From Bacillota bacterium (GTDB taxonomy: Bacteria > Bacillota > Clostridia > Lachnospirales > Lachnospiraceae): a stretch of DNA of 42,546 bases. The stretch is taken from assembly GCA_023663285.1 (NCBI GenBank), contig JAMPHT010000028.1:1-42546 (forward strand), in the 5' to 3' direction. Position numbers and translations under genes: made by a program. Shown one piece after another: positions 13,869-34,639 of this stretch (the first letter of the stretch is position 1; every line of letters starts with the position of its first letter). Under the pieces are notes generated by a model. The model was given only the letters and a program-made list of their open reading frames with translations. It had not been told where the DNA came from and made no database searches.

Positions 13869-13951
13869 GAAAGAATGCGAAGCATTCTTTCGGGCGCAGC
13901 AGAGAAAATCTTAGATAATGTCCTGCATTATCTTAGATTTTCTCTGCGCCC
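13869..13951 (-). repeat. Composite inverted-repeat element, copy B (after flhF)
   Basis: Two abutting inverted repeats. The larger spans 13892-13951: arms 13892-13920 and 13926-13951 pair almost fully around a 5-base loop, with a 3-base insertion and one mismatch. The mismatch sits in CTTAG, present in both arms on the plus strand (13910-13914 and 13932-13936). Directly next to it, GAAAGAATGC/GCATTCTTTC (13869-13891) is a perfect 10-bp stem with a GAA loop. The larger repeat includes the last codons and stop of flhF. The layout matches the element after fliH (33683-33806). I recognise no named repeat family. Confidence 0.85.
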
Positions 13952-15178
13952 TGTGCTAAGCAGACTCTTCACCGTCTTTTGGGGATTAAACAGTTCAATG
14001 TCGTCCGGCACATTCTGCCCGAAGGTCACATAGGCAATAGGCGCTTCCACACTCAGCCTGAGGTTCATCAGGTTCCCCAGGGATGATGTTTCATCCAGCT
14101 TTGTGAAAATCATCTGATAATCGGTTATCTCCTTGTAGCTCTCGGCGATCCGCTGCAGATCCCGATATTTCGTGGTGGCGGAAAGCAGCAGGAAGGTCTG
14201 GCATTCTCCCACCTCCTGCACTGCCGCCAGCAGCTGCTTCATCTTATCCAGCAGCTCTTCATTTTGGTGAGAGTGCCCTGCGGTATCCACAAAGATATAA
14301 TCGTACTCCCGAAAATCCGCTATGGCCGTTTTTATTTCCTCTTCAGAATAGATGACTCTGAAAGGCGCTTCCAGAATATTGGCATAAGTCCGCAGCTGCT
14401 CCGCCGCCGCAATACGATAGGTATCTGCCGTGAGAAGAGCCACCTTTTTCTTCTCCTCCACGGAAAAGTGGCTTGCTATCTTGGCGATAGTGGTAGTCTT
14501 TCCGATTCCCGTAGGCCCCATGAACAGCAGCGTCTTGGGCCCCCTGGCCGCCGGAGTGATGCCCTCCGCCTTGCCGAATTTTAAGATCATCTTCTGGTAC
14601 ACATTAGCCAGAATATAGTCAAAGGGCACATTGGGCTTTCGGTTTTTCTCCACATCATCCACGATCTGATTGGCGTACTTTTCATCCACCTCGTTTTCCA
14701 TCATGGTATTGTAGAGCAGGCGGATAAACTTTTCCTGTTCCCTGCTGCCGTCATCGGGTGCGGCCTCACCCTCCTTTGCCTCTCCGTCAGCCGCCCCGGC
14801 GTCCTCCTGAAGCTCTCCTCTTGCCTCCTCCTGCTGGAATCGGTTTACCAGCATGGTCTGTAAGCTGTCCAGCTTCTTCTCTATGTTCTGGGAGCTTTCA
14901 CTCATGACAGTCACGGCGTTCTGGGCAACGCGCACACCCTCCTCAAGCTTTGCCGCGTCGGGGTCCAGTCTCGCCGCTTCCCTGCGGACAGCCTGCAGCG
15001 AATCGCTTTCCTCCTCCAGCGCAACGGTGACTTCCACCTGTTTGCCGCCAAAGACGCCCGAAAATCCTTTCTTTTTTGCAGTTTTCACATTCATGACCAC
15101 AAGACCGTTCCCCAGCTCCTTCCTGGCAGCTTCCGTGGCCTCTTCTTCTGTCTTACCCACAAATTTCTTGATAATCAT
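13928..15178 (-). CDS. flhF: Flagellar biosynthesis GTPase FlhF
   Basis: 416 residues, an SRP-type GTPase. It has an N-terminal B domain (MIIKKFVGKTEEEATEAARK), a coiled-coil linker with an acidic insert (about 115-145), an N domain, and a G domain. The P-loop is GPTGIGKTTT (221-230), DTAG lies at 298-301 in FVDTAGHSHQNEELL, and TKLDE at 359-363. FlhF helps place the first basal-body components at the membrane. The ATG overlaps the flhA stop by one base (TAATG). The last residues (RRENLR) and stop are encoded in one arm of an inverted-repeat element, so the natural C-terminus may have been changed by it. Confidence 0.96.
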   Translation of the reverse strand: MIIKKFVGKTEEEATEAARKELGNGLVVMNVKTAKKKGFSGVFGGKQVEVTVALEEESDSLQAVRREAARLDPDAAKLEEGVRVAQNAVTVMSESSQNIEKKLDSLQTMLVNRFQQEEARGELQEDAGAADGEAKEGEAAPDDGSREQEKFIRLLYNTMMENEVDEKYANQIVDDVEKNRKPNVPFDYILANVYQKMILKFGKAEGITPAARGPKTLLFMGPTGIGKTTTIAKIASHFSVEEKKKVALLTADTYRIAAAEQLRTYANILEAPFRVIYSEEEIKTAIADFREYDYIFVDTAGHSHQNEELLDKMKQLLAAVQEVGECQTFLLLSATTKYRDLQRIAESYKEITDYQMIFTKLDETSSLGNLMNLRLSVEAPIAYVTFGQNVPDDIELFNPQKTVKSLLSTGRRENLR

Positions 15179-17226: not shown

Positions 17227-17251
17227 GCTCATCTCCTCCTTTCCGTTATAT

Positions 17252-32265: not shown

Positions 32266-33585
32266 TCATGAGTCAAAAAGACTGCCCAACAGCTCTACGC
32301 TGGTCTCAAAGTCAAACTTCTCTTCGGTAGCCTGACACAGAAACTCATTGACCGCGTCTATTTTCGCGATGGCGTAGTCAATGCTGGGGTTACTGCCGCT
32401 CTTATATGCGCCGATGTTGATCAGATCCTCCGCCTCGTTATAGGTAGCCAGCACATTTTTCAGCTTACCCGCCATCTGCTTGTGCTCTCTGGTGGCGATC
32501 TGGCTCATACAACGGGAAATGCTCTGCAGCACGTCGATAGCGGGATAATGATTCTTGTGCCCCAGCTTTCTGTCCAGCATGATATGTCCGTCCAGAATAC
32601 TTCGGGCAGTATCCGTGATGGGCTCGTTGAAATCGTCGCCGTCCACCAGCACGGTGTACAGCCCCGTGATGGACCCCTTATCCGACCTGCCCGCCCGCTC
32701 TAAGAGCTTGGGCATCTCCGCGTACACACTGGGAGGATAGCCCCTGCTCACGGGAGGCTCCCCGCTGGCAAGCCCGATCTCCCGCTGCGCCATGGAAAAA
32801 CGGGTCAGGGAATCCATCATCAGCAGTACGTCCCTGCCCTGATCTCTAAAATATTCCGCGATAGCCGTGGCCGTCTTGGCCGCCTTATTTCTCTCCAGGG
32901 CCGGCTTATCCGAGGTGGCTACCACCACCACCGAGCGCCGCATTCCCTCTTCCCCCAGATCCCGCTCTATAAATTCACGCACCTCACGTCCCCGCTCTCC
33001 AATCAGAGCGATCACGTTGATGTCCGCCTTTGTATTCCTTGCAAACATTCCCATCAGCGTGGATTTCCCCACGCCGGAGCCGGCAAAGATGCCGATACGC
33101 TGACCCTTCCCCACTGTGATCAGGCCGTCCACCGCCTTTACCCCCAGGGGCAGGACCTCGTCGATGATCTCCCTGCTCATAGGATCCGGCGGCGGCGCTT
33201 CCACAGGATAGGCTGCTCCGTTCACCACAGTGCCGTCCACCGGCCTTCCCAGACCGTCCAGGGTCTTGCCTAACAAATCGTCGCCGGCAACCACCCTTAA
33301 AGGGCTGCCTGTATTTTCCACCACACAGCCCAGCCCGATGCCGTCCGTGGCGTCATAGGGCATCAGCAGGGTCTTTTTGTCCTTAAAGCCCACTACCTCC
33401 GCCATGATGGGCGGCTGCTCCCCTTCCCCGCCGGGAAAGATCATGCACAGATCCCCCAGCCTTGCATCCGGCCCGGCGGATTCAATGGTCAGCCCCACCA
33501 CATTGACTACCTTGCCCAGCCTCTTAAAAAAAGACTGCTCCATTATTTTGTTGTACTTTCCGAAATCCACCACCGGTGCGTACAC
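32266..33585 (-). CDS. fliI: Flagellum-specific export ATPase FliI
   Basis: 439 residues. The Walker A motif GSGVGKST lies at 169-176, Walker B in VLLMMDSLTRF, and the catalytic Glu in LIGERGREVREF. SGEPPVSRGYPPSVYAEMPK is the F1/V1-type signature. FliI powers delivery of export substrates. The start is GTG at 33585 with GGAGG 5 bases upstream. A 220-base gap holding a structured repeat element separates it from fliH. Confidence 0.97.
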   Translation of the reverse strand: MYAPVVDFGKYNKIMEQSFFKRLGKVVNVVGLTIESAGPDARLGDLCMIFPGGEGEQPPIMAEVVGFKDKKTLLMPYDATDGIGLGCVVENTGSPLRVVAGDDLLGKTLDGLGRPVDGTVVNGAAYPVEAPPPDPMSREIIDEVLPLGVKAVDGLITVGKGQRIGIFAGSGVGKSTLMGMFARNTKADINVIALIGERGREVREFIERDLGEEGMRRSVVVVATSDKPALERNKAAKTATAIAEYFRDQGRDVLLMMDSLTRFSMAQREIGLASGEPPVSRGYPPSVYAEMPKLLERAGRSDKGSITGLYTVLVDGDDFNEPITDTARSILDGHIMLDRKLGHKNHYPAIDVLQSISRCMSQIATREHKQMAGKLKNVLATYNEAEDLINIGAYKSGSNPSIDYAIAKIDAVNEFLCQATEEKFDFETSVELLGSLFDS

Positions 33586-33682
33586 ACTGACCTCCGTGCT
33601 TCAAACCATTTATCACATCATGACCTTATTGCTATATATACACCATATCTTCTATGCGTATGCCGTCTGCTCTCCCGATTCC

Positions 33683-33806
33683 GGAAGAATGCCAAGAGAG
33701 TGCGCAGCACACCTCTTTGGGCATTCTTCCGCGCGAGTAGGCTCGCTTGCGAGCCGTAGGATTTCTTAGCGGGCGTACTTTGACCGCTTAGAAATCCTAC
33801 TCGCGC
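33683..33806 (-). repeat. Composite inverted-repeat element, copy A (after fliH)
   Basis: Two abutting structures. At 33683-33730, GGAAGAATGCC and GGCATTCTTCC form a stem extended by AAGAG/CTCTT. At 33731-33806 an outer stem GCGCGAGTA/TACTCGCGC (9 bp) encloses GGCTCGC/GCGAGCC (33740-33755) and GGATTTCTTAGCGG/CCGCTTAGAAATCC (33759-33772 and 33784-33797), which together can fold as a three-way junction. The longest stem has one mismatch, inside CTTAG, present in both arms on the plus strand. It ends at the fliH stop codon. The same design occurs after flhF. Confidence 0.85.
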
Positions 33807-34639
33807 TATTCGCGCTGCCAGGCCAGCAGCATCAGCTTCCGCTTCAGCGCCTCCAGCTGCGTATCCAGCCCGCAGTCGTAAATGCCGCTGTCCGTCTCGA
33901 TCAGGCACTCATTTTTCGCCAGGGTCATATCCTCCACTACTTCCACATTGCAGTTCGCCGCAACGGCCCCCGCCAGGATCTCCTTTTTCTGCATACTGAC
34001 ATAAGGATAATCCTCCTTGGAGACGTGTACCATAAAGTCGTGACCGCCCTCCAGCTTTCTCAGCGTATCTGAGATCAAATGGCCCAGGATCTCCCGATAA
34101 GACTGAAGCTCTACATGAAAAATATGCTCATAGATCGCCGCGATGGTATCCACCATCTGAGGCTCCAGCTCCTCTATCTGCTGTTTATAATAAAGCTCCA
34201 GCTGTTCTTCCTTTTCCCTGTATTCCTGCCGGATGGCTTCCGCCTCCGCCTGGGCTTTTGCATATCCCTCCGAATAGCCCTGCTGCTGCGCCTGTGTAAG
34301 AATACCGTTCTTCTCCGCCGCTGCCTGGGCTCTCGCCTCCTGAAGAAGGGCTTCCGCCTCCGCCTTTGCCGCCGCCAGAGTAGTCTGGGCCGCCGCCTGG
34401 GCATTCTCCATGATCTGGTCTGCGCTCTCCTGGGATTTGATGATACTGCTCTCTCCCTCGTCCCCTGTAAGCTCCAGCTCCGCCGCCGTAAGACCGGATA
34501 CAAACCCCTCCGCATCGGCTTCCTGCTGCCACCGCAGCAGATCGTCCTGCCGTTTCTGTATCAGCTCGTCAGCGCTGATGACACGTTTCTCCTCGGATTG
34601 GACCACCATAAACATCTGTTTTACCAAACCACTAGACAA
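33806..34639 (-). CDS. fliH: Flagellar export ATPase regulator FliH
   Basis: 277 residues. An N-terminal region is followed by a long Ala/Glu/Gln coiled coil (about 60-165) and a C-terminal FliH/VATPase-E-like domain (about 170-270, with YEHIFHVELQSYREILGHLI). It holds FliI dimers and inhibits them. The start was set at TTG 34639 because GGAGGTGA lies exactly 8 bases upstream; the GTG at 34651 is inside that ribosome site. The start codon overlaps the last codons of fliG. The stop codon borders a composite inverted repeat. Confidence 0.9.
   Translation of the reverse strand: MSSGLVKQMFMVVQSEEKRVISADELIQKRQDDLLRWQQEADAEGFVSGLTAAELELTGDEGESSIIKSQESADQIMENAQAAAQTTLAAAKAEAEALLQEARAQAAAEKNGILTQAQQQGYSEGYAKAQAEAEAIRQEYREKEEQLELYYKQQIEELEPQMVDTIAAIYEHIFHVELQSYREILGHLISDTLRKLEGGHDFMVHVSKEDYPYVSMQKKEILAGAVAANCNVEVVEDMTLAKNECLIETDSGIYDCGLDTQLEALKRKLMLLAWQRE

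Follow-up and report, generated by a model that had tools for sequence, protein, structure and literature searches.

A family of REP-like palindromic repeats in gene sense at stop codons of Lachnospiraceae, including the ends of fliH and flhF

Two flagellar genes on one contig of a Lachnospiraceae bacterium (assembly GCA_023663285.1, contig JAMPHT010000028.1) end in similar composite hairpins, one after fliH and one after flhF. Do these two copies belong to a larger family, and is that family a REP/MITE-like repeat or an RNA element that serves its host, as an earlier note on this DNA had suggested? Positions below refer to the window, i.e., the whole stretch of 42,546 nucleotides that was analysed.

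The description of the two copies in the earlier note was largely reproduced. The CTTAG words were found again at all four positions (33765-33769, 33787-33791, 13910-13914 and 13932-13936), and the single mismatch within the CTTAG stem and the smaller AGAATGC/GCATTCT hairpin adjoining the long one were seen again in both copies. Both lie at 3' ends of minus-strand genes: FliH (PF02108) ends at 33806 and FlhF, an SRP54-type GTPase, at 13928. The statement that the long inverted repeat reaches the stop codon holds for fliH, whose stop abuts the element; for flhF it needs correction, as the stop lies inside the long hairpin. The features are as follows.

33806..33808, minus strand: fliH stop codon TAG, abutting the composite element (PF02108 match)
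33732..33805, minus strand: fliH long hairpin, branched subtype (folds; match to model R1 at 33745-33807, E 2.8e-11)
33796-33805 and 33732-33739, minus strand: outer arms of the fliH long hairpin
33784-33799 and 33757-33772, minus strand: inner arms of the fliH long hairpin
33787-33791 and 33765-33769, minus strand: fliH CTAAG words (gene sense)
33774-33782, minus strand: loop word CAAAGTACG of the fliH long hairpin
33740..33756, minus strand: extra branch hairpin CGGCTCGCAAGCGAGCC of fliH, which replaces the 3-nt bulge in the branched subtype (like form in L005)
33683..33730, minus strand: fliH second hairpin, arms GGAAGAATGCC (33720-33730) and GGCATTCTTCC (33683-33693); core pattern found 16 times in the genome
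13892..13951, minus strand: flhF long hairpin (folds; match to model R1 at 13890-13952, E 1.2e-15)
13926-13951, minus strand: 5' arm of the flhF long hairpin
13892-13920, minus strand: 3' arm of the flhF long hairpin, with the 3-nt bulge
13932-13936 and 13910-13914, minus strand: flhF CTAAG words (gene sense)
13928..13930, minus strand: flhF stop codon, within the long hairpin
13869..13891, minus strand: flhF second hairpin GAAAGAATGCTTCGCATTCTTTC

As RNA of the gene strand both copies fold much better than their shuffles (z of -7.7 and -7.6; none of 200 shuffles was as good), and the folding is strong for RNA of both strands and also for DNA. In gene sense each long hairpin has CTAAG on each arm with a central A.A mismatch, and the loop of the fliH second hairpin holds a module of the AAAGAGG type. 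The next genes on the same strand encode a T3SS/ATP-synthase-type ATPase after fliH and a ParA/MinD-type protein after flhF; from family and gene order we read them as probable fliI and flhG. The 5' arm of the flhF long hairpin encodes the last residues of FlhF (...GRRENLR, at 13928-13951), and a comparable end in L093 and L094 (read as GRRESL) has no such hairpin. The branch hairpin of the fliH copy is flanked by plus-strand GTAG words (33737-33759), likewise at L005 and L015. These flanks either resemble GTAG REPs by coincidence or are the remnant of such a REP; the pattern is unenriched (10 matches vs 35 in the control), and the small hairpin formed in 4 of the 10.

The observation is real and extends well beyond two copies. 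A covariance model with a 24-pair structure was built on 16 aligned copies from the same genome, in which 97.6% of the pair cells are paired vs 79.4% after shuffling. In this draft genome, with 150 of 980 candidates scored, the model matches at least 35 places at E<1e-10; at E<=1 there are at least 86 matches, a number that includes echoes on the opposite strand. Pattern counts agree with the earlier opinion that such a structure is hard to get by chance: the genome has 15 occurrences of TTTCTTAG...CTTAGAAA and 16 of AGAATGC...GCATTCT, vs none for either pattern read backwards, and a search for the CTAAG/CTAAG stem gave 69 matches in 1.02 Mb of fetched stretches vs none in each of 10 dinucleotide resamplings; as those stretches were picked for holding copies, the 69 matches represent no genome-wide rate.

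Among 146 relatives, 65 genomes have matches, all within one of 49 genera, and the remaining genomes belong to other families of the order. The FlhF relatives make this genus Acetatifactor; the nearest of them (95% in FlhF) comes from a bin named A. muris. A second scan of 397 Lachnospiraceae genomes, with stricter filters and 13 candidates scored per genome, gave matches at E<=1e-5 in 32 genomes from 26 of 334 genera, and the supposition of a single-genus family was dropped. The distribution is patchy: in this second scan G513 has at least 13 matches, near-identical to one another in the copies read, and its genus-mate G189 has none. Tandem units occur as well, with neighbouring matches 133 bp (G072), 91 bp (G187) and 61 bp (G205) apart. 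The genomes in these comparisons are mostly drafts or metagenome bins, with gene calls from open frames. The family predicted from two copies is thus found across the genome, the genus and the Lachnospiraceae, with many copies at gene ends, covarying stems and a fixed CTTAG.

At the gathering score of Rfam the whole window matches a tRNA and no family for the hairpins, and four loci searched at a relaxed threshold gave nothing near a gathering score. One 101-base unit has no match in plasmid and phage records. IMG/VR yielded three pattern matches, too few to name a vehicle; two of them match the model (L264 4750-4795 and L265 2437-2499, E 1.1e-9). Units may be travelling on prophages here; alternatively, the contigs could come from the host.

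The conserved shape consists of a long stem with an A.A mismatch between two CTAAG words, a 3-nt bulge, a 7-nt loop and, usually, a second hairpin. In 94 aligned copies from four close genomes 97.4% of the cells are paired vs 74.1% in shuffles, and changes on both sides occur at 21 of the 24 pairs (481 such cells vs a shuffled mean of 127), with the reservation that the copy alignments A3 and A4, the latter with three opposite-strand echoes, were made to the model and favour its structure. The mismatch position is A/A in gene sense in 88 of the 94 copies, the bulge has three letters in 86 (AAG in 65), and the commonest loops are AAAGTAC (27), AAAATAC (12) and AAAGGAC (10). Few cells are G-U pairs (20 of 2153, with 56 unpaired), and the same applies to distant genera (10 G-U and 42 unpaired of 1397 cells). 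The CTAAG words, the loop and the bulge are common to unrelated gene ends and distant genera; among 55 copies read from one set of 61 matches, a frame of at least 60 codons ends within -45..+65 in 38, and several of the others are second tandem units.

By eye, the second hairpin directly follows the long one in most of the copies that were read and sometimes holds an AAAGAGG...CCTCTTT module in its loop. The modules (long hairpin, AAGAA hairpin, AAAGAGG loop module, GCCGCC hairpin) are mixed in varying sets, also judged by eye. At L036 and L045 of the same genome a repeated hairpin GACAATAGAATCAGCCTTTTGATTCTATTGT lies downstream of the element and recurs beside several copies.

The position at stop codons was counted for 98 copies within the fetched stretches (32 from the own genome, 22 from G072, 23 from G036 and 21 from G159, drawn from 86 listed matches at E<=1 with echoes included, 35, 40 and 36, respectively). 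For 84 of them a same-strand frame of at least 150 codons has its stop end within -45..+65 of the element start; the corresponding figures are 15 of 98 for the reverse strand and 208 of 2000 for random places. Most of these stops (56) fall within -7..+9, where the reverse strand has none of 98 and random places 33 of 2000; 26 lie further inside and two before. Lowering the cut-off to 60 codons gives 90 of 98 copies vs 67 of 98 on the reverse strand and 692 of 2000 random places, and 61, 1 and 103, respectively, within -7..+9. The stop ends pile up at -1 (18), 0 (15), +2 (10), +9 (6), +20 (14) and +52 (4); those at +20 are the TAA of the first CTAAG and those at +52 belong to the third. As judged from open frames, 78 of the 98 copies are followed by a gene of the same strand and 15 by one of the opposite strand, with no gene called for the other 5.

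The CTAAG words and a TGA near the unit start offer stop codons, so that a unit landing at or just inside a gene end still closes the frame. At C80 of the own genome the frame continues into the element and stops at +52, and G036 and G159 are empty there, their frames ending GAGAAGTAA; by this comparison the element removed the former stop and supplied another.

Orthologous sites differ between close relatives. At the fliH site of 12 relatives, G036 is full but with a different element, G159 has a remnant and 10 have none; in G072 fliH and fliI are about 10 nt apart. The flhF long hairpin is present in one of 37 related loci (L092); L093 and L095 have the small hairpin alone, and L094, with 92% identical FlhF, is empty. 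The flhB-flhA gap of about 19 nt in the window (17233-17251) is unit-free, and G072 has two tandem units there. In two filled/empty pairs the octamers at the element ends resemble the empty site but are not identical with it: AGTATGA and AGTGTGA in G072 C110 vs AGTGTGA in G036, and AAGTGCGA at both ends of the own C7 element vs AATGTGA in G072. The other pairs compared have no flanking duplication, and some of the differences are internal deletions. Judging from these sites, units are evidently lost and replaced. A further site can be mentioned: at C46 of the own genome two elements (L142 12710-12772 and 13186-13248) flank a small ORF after a gene which we take, from its C-terminus, to be pgk, and L081 (G084) has one element at the end of that pgk-like gene and no small ORF before the next gene. 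The suggestion of a REP/MITE-like repeat receives direct support from the empty sites, the patchiness and the tandem units.

In our view the family consists of short modular palindromes without coding function, which act like non-autonomous mobile DNA in Lachnospiraceae and settle in gene sense at stop codons; we give this reading a probability of roughly 60%. The family, its shape, its covariation, its place and orientation, and its presence or absence between close relatives are direct observations. A unit would consist of the long hairpin (stem, 3-nt bulge that is usually AAG, stem, CTAAG/CTAAG with A.A, short stem, 7-nt loop like AAAGTAC), usually followed by the second hairpin (AAGAA...TTCTT) and often by a hairpin of the GCCGCC type. 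It might be moved by an enzyme that acts in trans on the hairpin, for which the mismatch and the bulge could be the recognition marks. Once in place, the hairpin may alter how the message of the preceding gene is translated or degraded. For E. coli REPs that lie no more than 15 nt from a stop, stalled ribosomes and lower expression upstream have been reported (cited in the part of PMC12306157 available to us). These REPs form a hairpin right after the stop, as in the present family, whereas the present units often extend into the coding end; by analogy, a similar effect on the host is likely.

Selection on RNA could be an alternative cause of the strict gene sense, and the units may be host-owned RNA elements: hairpins of the mRNA after the stop that control translation, processing or stability of neighbouring cistrons, with movement secondary or past. 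The gene sense, the stop-codon position and the fixation of loop and mismatch across genera favour this proposal. So does the example of Ruminiclostridium cellulolyticum, a clostridial relative where, in the accessible text of PMC10311766, intercistronic stem-loops between genes of the cip-cel operon set mRNA processing; that text describes the stem-loops of one operon and no dispersed repeat, whereas the present family is dispersed. The patchy distribution and the empty sites at fliH, flhF and flhB-flhA in close relatives are difficult to reconcile with a host-owned element, and the rarity of G-U pairs noted above is unlike most structured RNAs, where such pairs are not rare. We consider this explanation unlikely.

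The nearest known systems are REPs and BIMEs. Like them, the present units are short intergenic palindromes in many copies, dispersed and clustered; like REPs, they lie near the 3' end of the upstream ORF (the 56 of 98 copies above), and like BIMEs they are mosaics of several palindromic modules. GTAG REPs, in the available part of PMC3733652, are palindromes that form clusters, lie near 3' ends of upstream ORFs, sometimes supply the stop codon and are uneven between strains. The present family differs from REPs in its longer bulged stem with the A.A mismatch, in a consensus without the GTAG/CGTC tag and in having no Y1 match in many carriers; that part of PMC3733652 also gives frequent G-T pairing for REP stems, whereas G-U is rare here. 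As with MITEs, the units are non-coding, repeated and polymorphic in presence; a parent transposon did not turn up, and a target duplication is at best doubtful. Bacterial stem-loop families have been clustered in other Firmicutes, e.g., Clostridium perfringens and C. tetani, with no Lachnospiraceae among them in the part of PMC2267715 considered; we set them beside the present family by description. The word "Firmicutes" has no occurrence in the available text of PMC3733652, which names no Firmicutes carrier there, and RepRanger (PMC12306157) predicts REPs in Bacillota, with none in Lachnospiraceae in the available part of its table. Our searches of the open-access literature returned no description of this hairpin family among the matches listed, nor any of a REP-like system in this gut family.

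If a RAYT (Y1 transposase) moved these units as it does ordinary REPs, the 3'-end position, palindromes, clusters and stop-codon supply would be accounted for, and Y1 genes (PF01797) do occur in 38 of 90 genomes and match in 8 of 19 carriers. The other 11 carriers (drafts) have no Y1 match, Y1 was not found in the drafts of the copy-rich G001, G005, G036, G043, G050 and G053, the family hairpin is absent at 11 Y1 loci, and the GTAG/CGTC end tag is neither in the 16-copy consensus nor evident in further copies read. The own genome has a Y1 gene on C23, which is IS200-like and broken; a link to it was rejected, as no family hairpin is found there. That gene is split at about 1734-1756 of L031 by a short perfect-looking hairpin (AGGGGTGTTGTCACACCCTCCT), which may be a tiny palindromic insertion. 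The idea of a RAYT-driven REP is weakened by the Y1 absence in many carriers and the hairpin-free Y1 loci, and we find it very improbable. We do not assign the family to the GTAG class, because it lacks the end tag and, in many carriers, a Y1 match; it works like REP/BIME, and we treat it as a separate REP-like family.

A companion gene was sought by clustering ORFs with 110 or more codons that lie up to 3 kb from any of 98 copies or on 40 further stretches; no transposase-like family stood out, and the largest cluster looks like ABC-type proteins, read from one sequence. Against the interpretation as mobile repeats speak the facts that no mobiliser and no common neighbour gene were found and that clear flanking duplications amount to two pairs at best. 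The internal deletions among the filled/empty differences count against it as well, and so does the reverse-strand figure of 67 of 98 at the 60-codon cut-off, though just one of those stops falls within -7..+9.

How the arms stay matched can be approached from 16 orthologous copy pairs, in which 54 stem pairs changed on both sides vs 17 on one side, three of the latter via G-U; two of the sites contribute three genome pairs apiece. Removing one doubtful pair (G072 C146 with G159 C348:3452, probably non-orthologous) leaves 42 both-sided vs 15 one-sided changes, and the seven pairs that are at least 92% identical have 8 vs 6. Independent change would yield mainly one-sided steps. Because one-sided steps are few and G-U is rare, the coupled changes suggest copying of one arm from the other at replication or selection on a DNA helix. 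Selection probably maintains the mismatch and the bulge, because copying would erase both.

Template switching can create and maintain hairpins (PMC8794818, in the part available), and the palindromes might have been formed by it in place at gene ends, with no transposition. The coupled arm changes fit this view, as does the 5' arm at flhF, which is coding sequence comparable with the hairpin-free end in relatives. However, CTAAG words, loop and bulge are shared at unrelated gene ends and in distant genera, and template switching is not the whole story because local copying cannot give a core shared by non-homologous sites; as the full explanation it is hardly credible. Intrinsic terminators, suggested by stem-loops just 3' of stop codons, deserve next to no credence, since the scan of the fliH region (33400-34000) found none on the gene strand and one weak match on the other (0.3 expected), and the copies lie between co-directional genes, e.g., fliH-fliI and flhF-flhG.

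Returning to mobile repeats, one may venture a more specific and tentative proposal, which we regard as possible rather than probable: the units might be a separate class of gene-sense palindromes that seek stop codons and bring stops of their own, moved by a non-Y1 enzyme of a kind that is not known to act on such repeats and that reads the mismatch and bulge, with the arms kept matched by copying and host coding ends becoming part of the hairpin.

The finding suggests that a major family of gut bacteria carries a REP-like system which does without the enzyme credited with driving GTAG REPs. Should this be confirmed, two questions can be put to the test: what moves the repeats without a RAYT, and why they are in gene sense at stop codons. 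The family also provides ample natural material for studying how the two arms of a palindrome remain complementary, by coupled changes or by G-U steps. In these Lachnospiraceae the C-termini and the operon spacing, including those of flagellar genes, are reshaped by the repeats.
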